From positions 1 through 26,698 of the IMG/VR virus record IMGVR_UViG_3300029309_000296: DNA of 26,698 nt; one strand, 5' to 3'. Of the stretch, positions 8,381-23,782 are shown piece by piece. How positions within the stretch are numbered: the first letter of the stretch is position 1; every line of letters starts with the position of its first letter. This DNA comes from a virus. Below the pieces are notes generated by a model that had not been told where the DNA came from, did no database searches, and saw only the letters and a list, made by a program, of their open reading frames with translations. Both the position numbers and the translations under genes were made by a program.

Positions 8381-10393
8381 TTACGCTGCCTCCTCTTTCC
8401 AATTAGGAGTTTGATTTGGAGTTATTTCGGACCAACTTGGTGTTTGACTAGCACTCACATCGGACCAACTTGGTGTTTGACTGGCACTCACATCGGACCA
8501 ACTTGGTGTTTGGCTGACACTCACATCGGACCAGCTAGGAGTCTGATCTGGCCCAATCTCACCCCAAATGTTAACAAGACCTATCTTACCTGTAATTTTT
8601 ACGCCGCTCAAGGAGACGGTTGCAGTGCCTGTAGGCGTGACCGAACCTACGGCACCCGTGGATGATACTCCTGTTACAGATACACCCACACCTTCTTCTA
8701 CTGTCACAGAGCCGACAGCGCCGGTTGCGGCCACTCCTGTTACGGATACACTTACATCAGTGGTTATTGATACTGTTACTGTGCCTACTGCACCGGCACC
8801 AGCCACACCACTGACCGATATTCCAACGCCCCCCTCAACAGAAACGGTGCCTACTTCACCAGTGCCAGCCACACCGCTGACTGATACTCCTACTCCTTCT
8901 TCAATAGAAACGGTGCCAATATTTCCAGTGGAGTTAACGCCAGTTGCGACAACATTAGCTTCACCTGTGGGAACTACTGCTCCTACACCACCATTAGCAG
9001 AAACACCTGAAACGTCTATGGAAACATCAGAACTTGCAGTTGCAGTGCCAATTTGGCCTACGGCAGAAACGCCACTGACAACAAATCTGGAATCACCACT
9101 GACAGTAGTAGTTCCAACATTGCCGGTAGAATTAACGCCAGTTGCAACTACATTGGCATCGCCAGTATGAACAATTGTTCCTATCTGACCTGTTCCAGAT
9201 ACACCCGTGGCGGATACATCAGTTCCTTCTTCGACAGAAATAGTGCCAATAGCACCTGTAGCCGCAGTGCCTGTTACATCTACAGATTTAGATATTTGAG
9301 CAACTACAGTGCCAATAGCACCTGTAGCCGCAACACCTGTCACATCTACGGATTTGGATATTTGAGCGACTACAGCCCCGATTTCGCCTGTAGCGGCAAT
9401 GCCTGTCACATCTACAGATTTAGATATTTGAGCGGCTACAGTGCCAATGGCACCTGTGGAGGAAACGCCACCAACAGTAAAGCTGGAATTACCGCTTACA
9501 GTTTCTTGACCAATCTCACCATTGGCCGCAACCCCCGTTGGAGAAACTATTGTCTCCCCTTGGAACTCTATGGCTCCAATCTCTCCTCTACCGGCAACGC
9601 CTGTTGGAGAAACAACAGACGTACCCGTAAGAGAAACTGTTCCCACTTCAGATGTGCCAGCAACGCCGGAAACAGAAACACTCGTGCCAGCCGCTGGCGT
9701 TACAGTGCCAATAGCGCCAGTGCCGGATACACCTGAAACACTTATTGAGACATCAGTTTGAACAGAGGCTGAGCCTATTTCACCTGTGGCTGCGACCCCT
9801 GTTACGTCCACAGATCTGGATATTTGAACAGCTACAGTGCCAATAGCACCCGTACCAGCTACGCCGCTAACAGATACGTCAGTGCCTTCTTGAACAGCTA
9901 CAGTGCCTATTTCACCTGTGCCAGATACACCCGTGACGGATACACCAATGCCTTGACCAACAGAAACTGTACCAACGGCACCCGTGCCAGCTACGCCGCT
10001 GACTGATACGCCAGCGCCTTCTTCGATAGAAACAGTGCCAACAGCGCCTGTGCCAGCCACGCCGCTAACAGATACACCTACGCCCTCTTGAATAGAAACT
10101 GTGCCGATAGCGCCAGTGCCAGCTACCCCTGTGGGGGTTACTGAAACGTTTTCTGTTCCTGAAGCGGTAACTGTACCAACAGCGCCTGTTCCAGCTACCC
10201 CTGTAGGACTTACTGAAGCGTCTGCTGTCACTGAAACGGTGACTGTGCCTATAGCGCCAGTACCAGCCACTCCTGTGGGGGTTACTGATACGTTGACAAC
10301 GCCGCCTGACGAAAAGTCAGCGTTAACAAAACCGAGTCCGTTAACGGTCAGGGTATCGTAAAACCCTAGTCCACTTACTCTCGGTAAAGCCAT
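8381..10393 (-). CDS. Giant repeat fibre: 26 x 22-residue repeats plus 11-residue C-terminal repeats
   Basis: This protein has 670 residues. The head (1-31) contains PRVSGLGFYDTLTVNGLGFV. Residues 32 to about 610 form 26 tandem repeats of mostly 22 residues with consensus (S/G)VSVSGVAGTGAIGTVSVEEG; each unit is short beta strands separated by GTG turns, which suggests a beta-solenoid or stacked-hairpin shaft. The tail (about 611-670) has five copies of an 11-residue repeat, QTPSWSDVSAS, which diverges at the end to QTPNWKEEAA. There are no cysteines and almost no charge apart from Asp/Glu. It is followed immediately by the second fibre gene. A related unit also occurs in the gene at 15634-16086. 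A structural fibre is likely; the ligand is unknown. Confidence 0.8.
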   Translation of the reverse strand: MALPRVSGLGFYDTLTVNGLGFVNADFSSGGVVNVSVTPTGVAGTGAIGTVTVSVTADASVSPTGVAGTGAVGTVTASGTENVSVTPTGVAGTGAIGTVSIQEGVGVSVSGVAGTGAVGTVSIEEGAGVSVSGVAGTGAVGTVSVGQGIGVSVTGVSGTGEIGTVAVQEGTDVSVSGVAGTGAIGTVAVQISRSVDVTGVAATGEIGSASVQTDVSISVSGVSGTGAIGTVTPAAGTSVSVSGVAGTSEVGTVSLTGTSVVSPTGVAGRGEIGAIEFQGETIVSPTGVAANGEIGQETVSGNSSFTVGGVSSTGAIGTVAAQISKSVDVTGIAATGEIGAVVAQISKSVDVTGVAATGAIGTVVAQISKSVDVTGTAATGAIGTISVEEGTDVSATGVSGTGQIGTIVHTGDANVVATGVNSTGNVGTTTVSGDSRFVVSGVSAVGQIGTATASSDVSIDVSGVSANGGVGAVVPTGEANVVATGVNSTGNIGTVSIEEGVGVSVSGVAGTGEVGTVSVEGGVGISVSGVAGAGAVGTVTVSITTDVSVSVTGVAATGAVGSVTVEEGVGVSVTGVSSTGAVGSVTPTGTATVSLSGVKITGKIGLVNIWGEIGPDQTPSWSDVSVSQTPSWSDVSASQTPSWSDVSASQTPSWSEITPNQTPNWKEEAA
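8396..8546 (-). repeat. 33-bp tandem repeats encoding QTPSWSDVSAS
   Basis: Near-identical 33-bp units begin at 8433, 8466 and 8499 (plus-strand core CAACTTGGTGTTTGACT), flanked by diverged units on both sides. They encode the five C-terminal copies of the 11-residue repeat in the fibre. In the central copies, differences are limited to a few bases, so this is a young duplication. Confidence 0.88.
8564..10300 (-). repeat. 26 tandem 66-bp units (22-residue repeats) within the fibre gene
   Basis: Translated on the minus strand, residues 32-610 of the 670-residue fibre contain 26 tandem units, mostly 22 residues (66 bp), with G-(V/I)-(A/S)-(G/A/S)-(T/A)-G-(A/E)-(I/V)-G-(T/S/A)-(V/I) as the invariant core. 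Spacing of matching codons is exactly 66 bases where I checked (TACAGATTTA-type words at 9281, 9347 and 9413). The three units around 9236-9450 are nearly identical at DNA level, whereas others are diverged, which fits recent tandem duplication on top of an old array. Confidence 0.9.
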
Positions 10394-12792: not shown

Positions 12793-13251
12793 TCACTCGA
12801 TACGAATAATCGCCGAAGATTGATTGGCAGTCGGAAACGCAATCGTAAATGTGCCAGAAGTAGATGTTTTGTTACTGCCGAAATCAAGCACACAAACAGC
12901 TTTGTTTGAAGCGCTTGAATTGTAAATCAAGGCACCCATCGCAGTTATCGTAGCACTAGTAAAATCACGGTCTGCAAAATCTGTGAAACCAACCGTTCCA
13001 GAGCTTGTGGGGTCAACTCTTGTCAAAGCAAGACCACCAGTAACATACGTCCCACTTGAGGCGACTTCGCCCGTCGTAGTGAAAGCGGTTGTTCCCGCGC
13101 CAAGAGTCGCTGTAGTGCTAGATTTGCCGCCACTACCTTCCGCGTATAGAGCAAGCTTGAAAGTGCCTCCTCCAGAGTTTTTAAAGTTGTGGACACCCTC
13201 TAAAAGCTCTTTTTTGAAGGAAGTACACATTAATGTACCTGCAATAGCCAT
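12793..13251 (-). CDS. Structural protein of a common marine phage family
   Basis: This protein has 152 residues. The ATG overlaps the upstream TAA (TAATG), with AGGAG 7 bases upstream. The N-terminus (SFKKELLEGVHNF, about 11-23), the middle FKLALYAEGS, and the C-terminus with ALIYNSSASNKAVCVLDFGS followed by FTIAFPTANQSSAIIRIE match a family that is very frequent in ocean phage virion modules. The fold looks like a beta sandwich. It is probably a virion surface or head-tail-region protein, but its exact place in the particle is not known to me. It is the last gene before the hairpin terminator. Confidence 0.75.
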   Translation of the reverse strand: MAIAGTLMCTSFKKELLEGVHNFKNSGGGTFKLALYAEGSGGKSSTTATLGAGTTAFTTTGEVASSGTYVTGGLALTRVDPTSSGTVGFTDFADRDFTSATITAMGALIYNSSASNKAVCVLDFGSNKTSTSGTFTIAFPTANQSSAIIRIE

Positions 13252-13541
13252 TACATTCTCCTTATTGCGTCAGCCAAAACATCTTGTCCTTCACGGCTCA
13301 AGATATGACATATAGTAGCACGTTCTTCTCTACGAGCAATATTTATGTAGTAAGCCAACAAAGCCTGCAATTGTTCACGAAACACCTCTGCTTGATCGCG
13401 TATAGCAGGAGGGGCTGTATCTGAAACTTTTAACAGCTTATCCATCGCCAACTCTACAATTTGATCTGTCTCTAAACCACCATTGTCTGAAGTAACTACG
13501 GATACTTCACCGGCTCCCATGTTCGTAGTAACATTAAACAT
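13251..13541 (-). CDS. Small conserved helical phage protein
   Basis: This protein has 96 residues. The start overlaps the preceding stop by 8 bases and AAGGA lies about 10 bases upstream. The family signature visible here is the helical core QIVELAMDKLLKVSDTAPPA followed by IRDQAEVFREQLQALL. Homologues I recall carry the same SD-APP-IR pattern and sit next to structural genes. No enzymatic motif, signal peptide or transmembrane segment is present. Function is unknown; an assembly helper or minor virion protein is plausible from context. Confidence 0.7.
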   Translation of the reverse strand: MFNVTTNMGAGEVSVVTSDNGGLETDQIVELAMDKLLKVSDTAPPAIRDQAEVFREQLQALLAYYINIARREERATICHILSREGQDVLADAIRRM

Positions 13542-14286
13542 TGTAAGTTATTCCTTCTACATCATGCCTTCCATGTAACACAGGCTCTCTACCATCCAAA
13601 GGCTCTGGGCCTTCCAAGTGTTCTTGTTTTTTCGGCTTGTACTCAGATTCTGCAACGATAATTAATTTATCGTTTTCAGTGTACTGAACAAGCGGATCAT
13701 CTAAACGATGATATCCATACAATTTTTCGTTCAAAGGTACATTTGTGTCTAGAAAAGAAGACCGCTCCGCAGTGCGCACAAAAATGCCCCGTGTTAAAGC
13801 TATAGCCGCCCAAAACTCACAACAGGATCTGCCAGCTTCTGCAAAATGCAAATTCTTTCTGTAAGAGAAATCTATCCCAAAGAGATTGATTCTCTTAACT
13901 TTAGCTGCGATAGCAAAAGCAATTGCATACGCTACAGTATTGTTAAAATAGGCAAATCCAAGTTCTGTTATAACCTCAGAAAGTGGATACTCTACGATCT
14001 CAGGCACTCTTTCATCAAGGCAACAAGAATATATCGGACCCTTATTAGGAGTTTCTAACAAAAATTCCGCTGCAATTCCTGTTTGGGTTCCTGCTTTCAC
14101 TCCATCAAGAAAGCGACTAGCTGGGTCCATCATAAAAGTTCTATCAACATGAACAATTGCGCCGATAGAATTAATCCCCCAGACCTCATCATAGCTTGTG
14201 GAATTTATACGAGCCTTTACGTAATCTGCGTAACTTCCCCCAAGACCAACAATGGCAATTTCTTTGCCCTCAAGTTCATCAAACAT
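13534..14286 (-). CDS. Rossmann-fold protein, sialyltransferase/DUF115-like candidate enzyme
   Basis: This protein has 250 residues. The N-terminus has a glycine-rich nucleotide-binding-type loop, IAIVGLGGSYADYV (10-23), followed by DEVWGIN (33-39) and DRTFMMDP (48-55). The second half has FNNTVAYAIAFAIAA (114-128), INLFGIDFSYRK (133-144) and CCEFWAAIA (155-163). The order G-G-S loop, D-(V)-W-(I)N, T(V/S)-Y--A-AIA and L-GIDF is the order seen in CMP-sialic-acid-dependent GT42 enzymes such as Campylobacter CstI and in DUF115/MptE-like proteins. The C-terminal 35 residues are acidic and Pro-rich. It overlaps the next gene by 8 bases and is sandwiched between an adaptor and small structural genes. 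Substrate and role are unknown; virion or host glycan modification is one possibility. Confidence 0.65.
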   Translation of the reverse strand: MFDELEGKEIAIVGLGGSYADYVKARINSTSYDEVWGINSIGAIVHVDRTFMMDPASRFLDGVKAGTQTGIAAEFLLETPNKGPIYSCCLDERVPEIVEYPLSEVITELGFAYFNNTVAYAIAFAIAAKVKRINLFGIDFSYRKNLHFAEAGRSCCEFWAAIALTRGIFVRTAERSSFLDTNVPLNEKLYGYHRLDDPLVQYTENDKLIIVAESEYKPKKQEHLEGPEPLDGREPVLHGRHDVEGITYNV

Positions 14287-14295
14287 TTTTTGCCC

Positions 14296-14958
14296 TTACA
14301 TTGTAGATGCACGGAGAGACTCCTCCCTGTAAGCATCTGTATTTTCTCGCCCTTCAGCATAAACTTTTAATGGTGGCGGCGGAAGTCTCCGCATAGATTC
14401 TGCATATCTGTTCATATACAACTGAAGAAGATCCGTCTCACCCTTCATAAAAGTGTACGCTTCTATTAAGCACGCATACAAAAGTGTATTCGGAGCATTC
14501 GTTCCAAGCCAAGACTGACCATCTGAAGTCTCCGTTATTGACTGCGGTCTATAATAGTAATGTAATTCAGTGACATAATTAGCATTTGGAGTAGGGCCAA
14601 TAATAAAATTTTGGTAATCAAAAGCCGCATAATAACGTGGAAGGCCGGTTGTGGCAGGATTTGGATTAAATTCCTGAATGTAATTAACATCTTTCTGTAA
14701 GAGAAATTGAGCATTTCCACTACTGTCAGTGAAATGCAAAGAAAAAGAGGCAAGATAGTCTGTGGGCATGTTCAAAAATTTATTGCCATTCGACATCACA
14801 CCCGCAACATTTTTGCGAAAATAGTCTAAATCTGTTTCTTTAAGAATACGCTCTTCAGCATTTTTTATGAAAATATTCAGATTGTTGACAAAAGTTGTCT
14901 CTGTGTTTTCTGTCCAATCCTGAATCGCTTGCTTCAATGTTGTGAATGTAAAGCTCAT
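14296..14958 (-). CDS. Head-tail adaptor, SU10-type adaptor-like
   Basis: This protein has 220 residues. The N-terminus (TLKQAIQDWTENTETTFV, about 7-24, then NIFIKNAEERIL) is the typical opening of the adaptor family in marine podophages. A beta domain follows, with LNMPTDYLASFSLHF, GLPRYYAAFDYQNF and GPTPNANYVTELHYYYRPQS, and a C-terminal helix (LLYACLIEAYTFMKGETDLL). These proteins form a ring between the portal and the tail hub. It lies between the cupredoxin-like virion protein and the Rossmann protein. The family call is from recognisable sequence patterns; exact stoichiometry and position in the tail cannot be read here. Confidence 0.75.
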   Translation of the reverse strand: MSFTFTTLKQAIQDWTENTETTFVNNLNIFIKNAEERILKETDLDYFRKNVAGVMSNGNKFLNMPTDYLASFSLHFTDSSGNAQFLLQKDVNYIQEFNPNPATTGLPRYYAAFDYQNFIIGPTPNANYVTELHYYYRPQSITETSDGQSWLGTNAPNTLLYACLIEAYTFMKGETDLLQLYMNRYAESMRRLPPPPLKVYAEGRENTDAYREESLRASTM

Positions 14959-14979: not shown

Positions 14980-15633
14980 CTACACTATGGTTATATTGCC
15001 AACCATTGAAGAGTGGTTGGTGCATTGATAAACAAGAGATGTATCGCTTGGCTCATGCGGAACGATAAACTGAGTCAAACCAGTGGTAGAATTATAATTT
15101 TCGGTCACACCGGTTGTGAAAGCAGATCCACCATTAGATGTCCTGATTTGCAGTGGATGGCTGCTTACGTTGGCTGTGTTATCAATCAAGTAAGTATGGC
15201 CTTTGTAAAACGTAAAGTTTGGATTGTTGCCTGACGTAGCACCCGGACCTGTGAATGTGTATGCCGAGCTTCCGCTAGTTCCAGCAGTATACTTTGTTAC
15301 AGGCCCAGTTGTTTCATCGTTTAATCTTATCCAAGCACCACCATGAGCAAAATAGAGGCCACCCGTAGCGTGAACATGAGCCACAGCCCCATGATAGGTT
15401 GATGCACTGGGCAAATCACTTAGGTTGGCATAGTAAAATACAATTTTGTTAGCTCCAGAGCTAACATCGAAAAGACCATTAGCATCTATGATGTCTGTCA
15501 ATACGCTAGAACTATTTCCTAACGCAGCGTAAATTTCGTTAAAGTTATCATTTATTTTGTCAGCGCCAGCACGAAGAGTATCACCAGTGCCGTCATTTGC
15601 GCTTGACCCTATTCCTACTGTTTGCTTTGCCAT
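14980..15633 (-). CDS. Virion protein with His-rich module and C-terminal cupredoxin-like domain
   Basis: This protein has 217 residues. The N-terminus GIGSSANDGTGDTLRAGADK (7-26) with INDNFNEIY is the opening of many T4-like and marine phage structural proteins. Residues 80-105 form the His-rich module YHGAVAHVHATGGLYFAHGG. Residues 136-217 look like a cupredoxin: FTFYKGHTYLID, then SHPLQI with His159, and a C-terminal VYQCTNHSSM with Cys204, His207 and Met210. That is a full set of type-1 copper ligands, with the C-x2-H-x2-M spacing of amicyanin. No signal peptide is present, as expected for a virion protein. Whether copper is bound is unknown. Confidence 0.75.
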   Translation of the reverse strand: MAKQTVGIGSSANDGTGDTLRAGADKINDNFNEIYAALGNSSSVLTDIIDANGLFDVSSGANKIVFYYANLSDLPSASTYHGAVAHVHATGGLYFAHGGAWIRLNDETTGPVTKYTAGTSGSSAYTFTGPGATSGNNPNFTFYKGHTYLIDNTANVSSHPLQIRTSNGGSAFTTGVTENYNSTTGLTQFIVPHEPSDTSLVYQCTNHSSMVGNITIV

Positions 15634-16086
15634 TTACCCCTCGTCAAAAGTCTTGTTACTGGAGTCTAATGTAACGCCCGTTGAATCAAAGGTCGATGCC
15701 GTGGTCAATGTTACAGAACCAATGGCTCCTGTTCCAGAAACTCCTGTGGCAGATACGGATACATCACCTGTTGATGTGGTTGTTATAGAGACACTGCCTA
15801 TTTTCCCAACGACAGATGGATTTGGTATAAACCGTAAAGTCGTTAAATCGAAGGCAGGGAAAGAAACCTCTACAGGTATTATGTTGTTTGTATCCGGCCT
15901 TGGATCTCGCAAAGCCTCTGCATCAGGGCTAATTCTAACAGGTCTTAATTGCGGATGTTTTGGCTCGTATTCGTCAGGGCCAACAAGAAGGCCATTCCAT
16001 TCTCGACGCATATCTCTTAAACGATAGCGGAACCCTGACCTATCAGAAATGCCGTAAGCGTATTTTCCTGTGGCGAACCGTGCCAT
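15634..16086 (-). CDS. Conserved virion protein with a stray copy of the fibre repeat
   Basis: This protein has about 150 residues. A GTG at 16089 is possible, but the ATG at 16086 overlaps the preceding stop (TGATG) and is preferred. The N-terminal 50 residues (MARFATGKYAYGISDRSGFR, RDMRREWNGLLVG, PDEYEPKHPQL) belong to a widespread marine phage structural family found between connector and adaptor genes. The C-terminal third changes character: VSVSATGVSGTGAIGSV matches the 22-residue repeat of the giant fibre encoded at 8381-10393. The N-terminal domain probably attaches to the head or connector. The repeat tail may display or bind the same thing as the fibre. Confidence 0.75.
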   Translation of the reverse strand: MARFATGKYAYGISDRSGFRYRLRDMRREWNGLLVGPDEYEPKHPQLRPVRISPDAEALRDPRPDTNNIIPVEVSFPAFDLTTLRFIPNPSVVGKIGSVSITTTSTGDVSVSATGVSGTGAIGSVTLTTASTFDSTGVTLDSSNKTFDEG

Positions 16087-16754
16087 CACCCTACCCTATA
16101 ATACTGAAGGCTAGGAACCACGTTAAAGGAGGCTCTGTCTCTATCCTCTGCTTGTGCGCGGTCAAACTCTTCATCATAAATAGCTTTTAGAAGCTGTATT
16201 CTATCAGGGGCTTTCTTGATAGCTAAGTAATATGCTAACCCCGCCGCAAGGCACGGATAAAAACGAAAAGGGACCTCTACTGTATTAACAAACGTGTCGG
16301 CGTCTTCAATACGTGTCAGACAGTCAAAGTGCAAAACATCAGTAGAGTTCTCTGGCGTGGGCCATATTTTTATTTTAGGCGTTATCTGACGATCAATAAA
16401 AAACTGCGTTGGCCGACCAGTAGTTGTTTTGTTTGGTATGTTAAGATAATCATCGCGGCTAATTCTATTCATAGAAAAATCAGTGCTGCCACGCCGCACA
16501 ACCATGGACAAAACATCTATTACGTCAGTTCCAAGATCATAATCATTGTCGGAAGCTGTCAAAGCCTGCGTTCGCTGCGTAATAGTCCATTGATTTAAAC
16601 CACGATTGGCCCAATCTGCGAATAAAAGGTTCAACGATCTTTTTGCAGTTTTCAGATCATATCCTGTCCTGACCTGCATGCCACAGCGCTCAAACGCCTC
16701 TTCGATGTAATCACTTACATCAAGCTCAAAGTCCGTTGAACCAGAAGTTGTCAT
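16086..16754 (-). CDS. Head-tail connector, P22 gp4-like candidate
   Basis: This protein has 222 residues, begins MTTSGSTDFELDVSDYIEEA, and its start overlaps the upstream stop (TAATG). The helical N-terminus (IEEAFERCGMQVRTGYDLKT), ADWANRGLNQWTI (about 46-58), and a beta domain with PTQFFIDRQ and KIKIWPTPE match the tail-accessory/connector proteins that sit beneath P22-type portals in marine podophages. The C-terminal helix carries FYPCLAAGLAYYLAIKKAPD. It probably forms the first ring below the portal. The separate SU10-type adaptor downstream would then form the next ring. Family assignment is by eye. Confidence 0.7.
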   Translation of the reverse strand: MTTSGSTDFELDVSDYIEEAFERCGMQVRTGYDLKTAKRSLNLLFADWANRGLNQWTITQRTQALTASDNDYDLGTDVIDVLSMVVRRGSTDFSMNRISRDDYLNIPNKTTTGRPTQFFIDRQITPKIKIWPTPENSTDVLHFDCLTRIEDADTFVNTVEVPFRFYPCLAAGLAYYLAIKKAPDRIQLLKAIYDEEFDRAQAEDRDRASFNVVPSLQYYRVG

Positions 16755-17035
16755 TATTTCTTAACCTTGCCGCCACCGCGCATACGACGCGACTTTTTAG
16801 CAGCACCACCACCCATCATACGACGCGGCTTCTTGGCAGCACCACCACCCATCATGCCCATGGCTTTGCGAGGTGATACGTTTCCGGTTGCACCACCGCC
16901 ACGCATACGACGCGGCTTTTTGGCGGCACCACCGCCCATCATCCTTTTAGCCTTCTTGGCAGCGCCGCCGCCCATCATCCTTTTAGCTTTCTTGGCAGCG
17001 CCGCCGCCCATCATCCTTTTAGCTTTTTTAGCCAT
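16754..17035 (-). CDS. Lys/Met/Gly tandem-repeat protein with seven GGG blocks
   Basis: This protein has 93 residues and is almost entirely made of a 12-residue unit, KKAKRMMGGGAA. Three near-perfect copies are followed by diverged copies (KKPRRMRGGGAT, KKPRRMMGGGAA, KKSRRMRGGG) and an interruption, GNVSPRKAMGMMGGGAA. It is extremely basic and has no acidic residue. The start overlaps the previous stop by 8 bases. I do not know a function; nucleic-acid or membrane binding is suggested only by charge. The clean reading frame on the coding strand and the conserved overlap spacing argue that it is translated. Confidence 0.7.
   Translation of the reverse strand: MAKKAKRMMGGGAAKKAKRMMGGGAAKKAKRMMGGGAAKKPRRMRGGGATGNVSPRKAMGMMGGGAAKKPRRMMGGGAAKKSRRMRGGGKVKK
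16760..17035 (-). repeat. 36-bp tandem repeats encoding KKAKRMMGGGAA
   Basis: The plus strand shows repeated words such as CCCATCATCCTTTTAGCTTT spaced 36 bases apart in the 17035 half, and diverged versions (GCATACGACGCGGCTTTTTGG) in the 16760 half. They account for nearly the whole 93-residue gene. The copies nearest the start codon are the most alike, so expansion there appears most recent. Confidence 0.85.
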
Positions 17036-17486
17036 TGTTCAACCTTCTCTCTCGTCTTGCTAAGATAAGTTTGATGTAGTCTTCGGGTTCATATTGTTGA
17101 TAGTATCCCACTTTTTCTAACTTTTGACTAGCATCGTCCAATTCTGACAGCCTTTGTATAAATATTATGGCCACCTCTCCCTCAAACACTAACACCCACA
17201 AATCTTGTTTAGTAACAGAAAAGTAACTGTTCATTGCCATGCAGGCAGATTCTAACTCATCGTATGATCTATCTGGATTTTCATCAATACAAACAGTTAG
17301 GGCATTCTTTGAGTCAAAATTTACACACTCTTCAGCAACTCTATCCCACAAGTTCTCTTCACATACGACAACTTTCACACGATCATCTAACCATGCCTTT
17401 TTTGCGTACGGACAAAGTGCAAACCCAGATTCAGGGTCTACAGGTGATAAATCTTCCATAATCCAACGACGAACAAACTCATTCAT
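17028..17486 (-). CDS. Conserved hypothetical protein with CPYAKKA motif
   Basis: This protein has 152 residues. Its start overlaps the upstream stop (ATGA). The N-terminus carries GFALCPYAKKAWLDDRVKVV (about 21-40). The G-x-x-(L/V)CP(Y/F)AK motif is shared with DUF1415-like bacterial proteins and with a small family in marine phages. Further segments are NALTVCIDENPDRSYDELES (about 61-80), a beta-rich WVLVFEGEVAIIFIQRL and a helical C-terminus. It is acidic, unlike its basic neighbours. Four cysteines are present (25, 42, 54, 66 by my count, plus one near 82). I cannot assign a function. A redox or cofactor-binding role is a guess from the conserved Cys. Confidence 0.65.
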   Translation of the reverse strand: MNEFVRRWIMEDLSPVDPESGFALCPYAKKAWLDDRVKVVVCEENLWDRVAEECVNFDSKNALTVCIDENPDRSYDELESACMAMNSYFSVTKQDLWVLVFEGEVAIIFIQRLSELDDASQKLEKVGYYQQYEPEDYIKLILARRERRLNNG

Positions 17487-23311: not shown

Positions 23312-23782
23312 CTATACATATGAAATATCAGCAGGGTCAAGGATAGTAGCGATAATATTATCGTCATTTATGAGGCGAACCTCCAAACCATCCACTTTGA
23401 ACCTATTTCCAGCATATCTTCCCATTAAAACCCAAGAACCTTGCTCACACCACGGACCCGTTGGGAATTTTTGGGCATCTTTATATGCGTCTGGGCCAAC
23501 CTTTACGACATAGGCTGCAACAGTTGCAAAACTCTCGCGCTCTCGCACCTTATCTGGAATATACACGCCAGAGGATGTTTTGGCCTTCATGTAGTATGGA
23601 ATGACAAGGAGACGATAACCCACAGGTTGCGGAAGACGCTCTAACGCGGAGGCTTCCATCTTTGATGGGTCTTCGTTGTTCTTCGTGTCTTCATCATGCT
23701 GATCAAAAGCCTTCTCAATGGCAGGAGGCATTTCATCTTTTGGTTTCGTCATCCTCTCAGGAACAAATAGCTTTTTAGCCAT
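23312..23782 (-). CDS. groES: Phage GroES-like co-chaperonin (Cpn10)
   Basis: This protein has 156 residues. Residues 49-150 align by eye with Cpn10: PVGYRLLVIPYYM (53-65), the mobile loop KAKTSSGVYIPDKVRERES (66-84) with a hydrophobic VYI at the GroEL-contact position, then ATVAAYVVKVGPDAY, CEQGSWVLMGRYAGNRFKVD (112-131) and a C-terminal DDNIIATILDP. Residues 1-48 form an acidic extension absent from bacterial GroES. No groEL is in the window, so it would work with host GroEL, as T4 gp31 does for gp23. Position between portal and scaffold/capsid genes supports a capsid-folding role. It overlaps the upstream gene by 8 bases. Confidence 0.85.
   Translation of the reverse strand: MAKKLFVPERMTKPKDEMPPAIEKAFDQHDEDTKNNEDPSKMEASALERLPQPVGYRLLVIPYYMKAKTSSGVYIPDKVRERESFATVAAYVVKVGPDAYKDAQKFPTGPWCEQGSWVLMGRYAGNRFKVDGLEVRLINDDNIIATILDPADISYV

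Follow-up and report, generated by a model that had tools for sequence, protein, structure and literature searches.

A virus record from IMG/VR, 26,698 bases long and analysed here over its whole length (the window), encodes a 250-aa protein in the midst of its virion genes, and the question raised by this locus is what such a protein does there. The initial annotation described it as a sialyltransferase- or DUF115-like Rossmann protein lying inside the connector module, and suggested a role in glycan modification of the virion or of host surface sugars.

The gene and its neighborhood

The proposed ORF (13534-14286) is borne out by its ATG start on the minus strand and by its conservation in relatives, and all the motifs quoted initially are found in its translation, namely GLGGS (residues 14-18), DEVWGIN (33-39), DRTFMMDP (48-55), FNNTVAYAIAFAIAA (114-128), and INLFGIDFSYRK (133-144). 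The gene is real and under strong purifying selection; between the window and locus L004, changes at codon positions 1, 2, and 3 number 29, 12, and 102, respectively, with a dN of 0.081 and a dS of 1.18. It starts 9 bases past the SU10_adaptor ORF, and its end overlaps the start of p96 by 8 bases (Table 1). The window also encodes an SU10-like portal, recognized by Pfam, and a capsid protein (Phage_capsid_4) that shares 72% identity with its counterpart in phage DSL-LC04 and 70% with its counterpart in pelagiphage HTVC023P.

Table 1. The 250-aa protein gene, its motifs, and its neighbors in the window (residue numbers are those of the 250-aa protein; counts refer to the 81-sequence alignment).
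Feature	Coordinates	Strand	Basis
Gene of the 250-aa protein with a predicted GT42/DUF115-type fold	13534..14286	minus	ORF and translation, ATG start, relatives, model, fold matches, DUF115 profile link
GxGxS loop, residues 14-18	14233..14247	minus	G16 in 81/81; residue 18 is S in 75 and T in 6; follows beta strand 9-13 in the model
RTFMMDP, residues 49-55, including D54-P55	14122..14142	minus	D54 and P55 each in 81/81
NNT followed by GIDFSY, residues 114-142	13861..13947	minus	Signature common to DUF115 and GT42; hhalign to DUF115
FAEAGR, residues 148-153, start of a helix after the superfamily His position (H147)	13828..13845	minus	E150 and G152 in 81/81
EKLYGYHRL, residues 187-195, private to the family	13702..13728	minus	L189-L195 invariant in 81/81
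Upstream neighbor, SU10-type adaptor	14296..14958	minus	Pfam SU10_adaptor 1.2e-24; PHROG head-and-packaging 8.9e-22
Downstream neighbor p96, 96 aa, no named family	13251..13541	minus	Pfam and PHROG scans, slot survey
p152, function-unknown PHROG 644 family; bounds the slot on the right where relatives lack the gene	12793..13251	minus	PHROG

Several other features of the window are worth recording. The module holds two SU10_adaptor paralogues on the minus strand, the one adjoining the gene and another at 16086-16754 (5.3e-13); a PHROG 28581 protein separates the two. Directly upstream of the adaptor that adjoins the gene, a protein with a T4 gp9/10-like N-terminal domain is encoded (14980-15633, minus strand; Pfam 2.7e-8), which is present in one of the 22 capsid-anchored loci that span the slot (see below). 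A Cpn10 (GroES-like) co-chaperonin lies near the capsid gene (23312-23782, minus strand; PF00166, E 2.6e-10, over the cut-off). Two repeat proteins are also encoded on the minus strand: one of 93 aa, made of KKAKRMMGGGAA repeats (16754-17035), and one of 670 aa (8381-10393), with GVAGTGAIGTV-like units and C-terminal tryptophan repeats (TPSWSDVSASQ), whose sole Pfam match is borderline (Spt5 CTD, 25.3 vs. 25.4 bits).

Relatives and distribution

A first scan of IMG/VR proteins confirmed 574 relatives of the 250-aa protein, of which the best 80 were kept. The alignment used throughout contains 81 sequences, the window protein and 80 others, each 41-86% identical to it. An outward walk via L082, L083, L198, and L239, together with anchor scans, brought the loci with the gene to 386, a figure that includes contigs fetched twice; here and below, locus counts are of fetched loci including near-copies, in sets biased towards the queries. 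Many uncultured ocean phages carry the gene between two virion-building genes. Two of these loci, L082 and L083, were taken from MAGs labelled Trichodesmium and Alphaproteobacteria, but their flanks hold the same phage gene order, which suggests phage contigs that ended up in cellular bins. A cellular origin was rejected, since among 385 genomes of the class of the L083 genome the only match was the contig already known.

Among 50,697 phage records, tblastn with the window protein found no match at E 0.01. With a divergent member as the query and a limit of E 10, the sole match below 0.5 was to Microcystis phage Mvi-Yong1342-1 (E 5e-4), whose protein XAN61349 (L250:3665-4468, PP496355.1) is a distant homologue by profile (E 7e-11; 2.7e-12). 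Despite its annotation as a type 11 methyltransferase, no methyltransferase match was found for this protein in Pfam. Unlike members of the connector-slot family, XAN61349 sits before the terminase small subunit and does not hold the GYHRL motif.

The gene is not a constant part of the module. Of 80 loci anchored on the major capsid protein (MCP), 58 do not span the slot; the 22 that do comprise nine with the gene and p96, eight with p96 alone, and five with neither, so that the gene is cleanly absent from 13 relatives with similar capsids. Likewise, it is found in none of the 77 loci that span the slot among 80 anchored on the HTVC027P adaptor. The adaptor is directly followed by p152 in the cultured phages HTVC027P, HTVC023P, and CRP-901 and in phage genome 023Pt_psg01, while the order in DSL-LC04 is adaptor, p96, p152; Planktothrix phage Pag-Yong1 has the adaptor, without p152 and without the gene in the stretch examined. 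The placement inside the connector module therefore holds as a position, but not as membership of the connector, and a structural connector part was discarded as the main reading because of these relatives cleanly lacking the gene.

In a capsid-protein tree of 75 rows, one of them on a very long branch, gene presence requires at least four state changes, two of which are forced by starred branches, against a mean of 19.7 after shuffling. This argues against highly mobile cargo and for what is mostly a clade trait with few gains and losses. Together, the slot survey and the capsid tree indicate that the gene is optional for the virion but inherited with the clade. A link with a 152-aa ORF at 17028-17486 was also considered, as it accompanies the gene in seven of nine loci and occurs in none of 13 without it among the 22; it was rejected in a larger set, where the ORF is present in 27/191 loci with the gene and in 3/41 without.

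When present, the gene is usually the only occupant of the slot: this is the case in 350 of the 365 loci spanning adaptor to p96, and the other 15 hold extra ORFs. These extra ORFs number 20, the largest cluster comprising nine, and ten were scanned with Pfam; four score above a 2OG-oxygenase-superfamily cut-off (2OG-FeII_Oxy_5 or PhyH), two match below it, and four have no match. In L035:3796-5692, the relative of the gene lies between two oxygenase-like ORFs, one over the PhyH cut-off and the other over that of 2OG-FeII_Oxy_5. A recurring cargo of approximately 250 aa (L005:4556-5350, L477:15540-16319, and L021:2115-2858) has no Pfam match in these three instances.

Predicted fold

A model built from the 81-row alignment reached a mean pLDDT of 84.5 and a pTM of 0.81, being poor beyond approximately residue 220. 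It replaced a first model from 25 close relatives, which had a pLDDT of 61 and no match under E 0.01. In Foldseek against the PDB, CstII came top (E 1.3e-4, probability 1.00), followed by chains of SteA (E 3.3e-4), and the five chains at E <= 0.001 are three of CstII and two of SteA. VIA-align gave Z scores of 12.1 for Maf, 11.9 for MjHPPK, 11.0 for CstII, 10.8 for SteA, 10.4 for CstI, and 10.0 for ThiN, compared with 6.6-7.7 for GT29 and 5.4 for the next unrelated fold, a dehydrogenase. The matches with Z 10-12, from six families, extend over 121-166 residues and leave residues 181-250 outside. Among viral predicted structures (BFVD), the best matches are phage proteins without names (E 7e-12), and others bear the names MptE-like or glycosyl transferase family 29.

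A profile of 16 DUF115 domains drawn from genomes agrees with the fold matches. Aligned to it with hhalign, the family scored 48.1 (E 2.2e-6) over 40 columns, F114-R153, whereas 12 column shuffles scored at most 18.6 and two reversals at most 14.8; the same profile retrieves Maf, MjHPPK, and CstII in the PDB. The original guess of a fold related to GT42 and MptE/DUF115 is upheld by these two lines of evidence, with both families at the top of the structural searches and no drift towards an unrelated fold. Judging from the model, the 250-aa protein almost certainly belongs to the fold superfamily comprising GT42, DUF115, Maf, MptE, SteA, and ThiN.

Assignment to a named family is a different matter. 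The window protein scores 13.0 bits against Pfam PF01973 (DUF115/MptE-like), below the gathering cut-off of 34.6, and it reaches the cut-off of no NCBIfam model. MptE-like is the commonest weak Pfam match of the family, found in 10 of 25 members with a best E of 0.0041, always below the cut-off. CST-I (PF06002) is absent from the Pfam matches of these 25 members and from the window record, in a search where the control genomes gave no match either; as a further control, it matched nothing in 289 genomes, and over 398 genomes it passed the cut-off in one (L416), and comparison of the family with that single protein was weak (E 0.004, probability 8%). Sequence searches of the PDB yielded nothing usable, the best being an aspartate-semialdehyde dehydrogenase at E 0.1; the alignment of 25 relatives gave no match, and a GFP match at E 0.82 was put down to chance.

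Conserved residues and the putative pocket

Thirty-six columns are invariant across the 81 sequences. They include N39, D54-P55, R58, D61, C88, D91, R93, N115-N116-T117, G137, D139, and Y142, and further on E150, G152, C155, E157, S176, and L189-YGYHR-L195. Over 334 loci, pairwise identity averages 0.57 in the 250-aa protein, 0.53 in the adaptor, 0.47 in p96, and 0.76 in p152. The GxGxS loop occupies the site of the nucleotide-phosphate loop of the superfamily and may, by analogy, play the same role. By motif position, N39 would correspond to N31 of CstII, and D54 would stand where CstII has N51; T117 is invariant as well, and in place of the first-loop Asn the family has M, L, I, or F. Part of the presumed pocket signature is retained, rather than all nucleotide-binding residues being substituted: the GxGxS loop, the Asn of WxIN, D54-P55, T117, and G137xD139.

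Other positions set the family apart. The Pro of GxGPS gives way to Q, G, K, S, R, and A, the six commonest residues there in the 81 sequences. By motif position, the family has no counterpart of the SDLDGD of MjHPPK, an acidic stretch after strand 3 of MptE/HPPK with a role in metal binding; in the consensus, D54-P55 is not followed by a second acid two residues on. H147 aligns with the His motif of DUF115, and its column holds His in 66 sequences, Asn in 12, Tyr in two, and Ser in one. In CstII and CstI, the catalytic histidines are described as His188 and His202, respectively, and Arg129, Asn51, and Tyr81 of CstII as helping acceptor binding (PMC4202792). Conserved motifs of the family's own are NNT, FAExGR, and EKLYGYHRL.

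The protein is thus assigned to the superfamily and to none of its named families, given the missed cut-offs, the absence of both the GxGPS proline and SDLDGD, the variable H147, and the weak CST-I comparison. For similar reasons, the label of sialyltransferase does not follow: the DUF115, CST-I, and NCBIfam cut-offs are missed, the residue aligned with the superfamily His varies, and some of the invariant motifs are particular to the family.

The flagellin glycosyltransferase Maf and other DUF115 proteins (PF01973; PDB 5mu5) provide the best fold match and the best profile link, with the same order of GxGxS, a Thr before the last helix, GxDxxY, and the His region; however, the phage protein is small and single-domain, lacks the Pro of GxGPS, and carries its own C-terminal EKLYGYHRL. 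CstI and CstII (GT42; PDB 2p2v, 1ro7, and 1ro8) share the fold, the Asn after strand 2, the Thr before the helix, and GIDF, but identity is at most 20%, the CST-I profile is silent, the His position is variable in the phage family, and the phage has no known supply of CMP-sugar. The 6-hydroxymethylpterin diphosphokinase MptE (PDB 8sd5) resembles the phage protein in fold, but DxDG is absent from the phage family and a pathway context is lacking. Finally, SteA and ThiN have the fold and the likely nucleotide pocket in common with it (PMC12977500), although no sequence similarity to them was found and their context differs.

Proposed function and alternatives

The reading tentatively preferred here is that of an accessory transferase dependent on a nucleotide, most likely a glycosyltransferase whose target lies on the virion or the host surface. 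Glycosyl transfer is favored because the nearest folds include Maf and GT42, the gene is optional among virion genes, and hydroxylase-type cargo sometimes adjoins it; two of the three top fold families are glycosyltransferases. The gene would be expressed late in infection, as its place in the virion operon suggests. A nucleotide-phosphate donor would bind in a pocket where the Rossmann strands end (GxGxS, WxIN, DP, NNT, and GxDFSY), and the activated group, most likely a sugar from a host nucleotide-sugar, would be moved to a virion protein or a target on the host envelope. The pocket common to SteA, thiamine pyrophosphokinase, and CstII has been described as a phosphonucleotide site (PMC12977500). 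Catalytic residues would probably lie among the family-invariant D54, R58, D61, D91, R93, N115, N116, E150, Y190, H193, and R194, so that a GT42-type histidine would not be the sole candidate. CMP-sugar synthetases (PF02348) were found in none of 18 long contigs carrying the gene, which may be fragments, as against 11 of 14 control genomes; the nucleotide-sugar, if it is the donor at all, would therefore come from the host. Glycan modification of the virion or host, as initially suggested, fits the accessory distribution and the occasional oxygenase neighbors, although these do not prove it. Three glycosyltransferases have been reported in genomes of the HTVC023P type, their fold not being named (PMC9599517); nothing decisive came from PMC12839542, PMC10149686, PMC12753301, and PMC1508147.

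The same fold also houses kinases and the cell-division regulator SteA, and both offer other readings. An enzyme of the MptE/ThiN kind, working late in infection as a diphosphokinase or phosphotransferase on some small molecule such as a pterin or a nucleotide, appears unlikely: MjHPPK and ThiN match the model no less closely than CstII, and MptE-like is the most frequent weak Pfam match, but all these matches fall below the cut-off, the acidic stretch of MjHPPK has no equivalent around D54-P55, and no gene of a pterin or thiamine pathway was recognized among the window proteins scanned. A non-catalytic nucleotide-binding protein, with a part in assembly or regulation like the one SteA seems to play, is slightly less probable still. 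The closeness of SteA in both structural searches, the location of the gene in the connector module with p96 nearly always directly next to it, and a divergence that follows that of p152 (Spearman 0.77) would all suit such a factor. On the other hand, the same module does without the gene in 13 of the 22 spanning loci anchored on the MCP and in all 77 anchored on the HTVC027P adaptor, and the many invariant polar residues across the 81 sequences, typical of an active enzyme, suggest chemistry.

Oxygenases adjoining the gene in some loci also bring to mind an enzyme of DNA or nucleotide modification, transferring a group to hydroxymethylated bases with their help, and pairs of DNA-hypermodification genes have been reported in genomes of the HTVC023P type (PMC9599517). 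This is nevertheless very unlikely, as the gene lies in the virion operon rather than in a nucleotide-metabolism region, and 350 of 365 loci have no extra gene in the slot. An extension of the preferred glycosyltransferase reading, decidedly speculative although less so than DNA modification, would see an optional cassette for post-translational modification within the connector operon, in which a transferase of Maf/GT42 fold, sometimes with 2OG-Fe(II) oxygenases, would act on head-tail or tail proteins, first by hydroxylation and then by glycosylation, in a widespread group of marine phages, altering adsorption or protein stability between lineages.

Significance

Proteins of this kind were already known, since BFVD has phage entries under the names MptE-like and glycosyl transferase family 29. 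What the present analysis describes is the family in the connector slot, with the motifs private to it and its presence in some relatives but not others, and no published description of this family was found in the literature searched. With it, the superfamily that unites sialyltransferases with kinases for pterin and thiamine gains a viral branch that has no name. Should the protein act as a transferase on glycans of the virion or the host, a fixed slot of the virion operon would house an optional enzyme of modification in a large group of ocean phages, most of them uncultured, and phages of similar capsid with and without the gene would offer a natural comparison for the role of virion glycosylation in marine phages.
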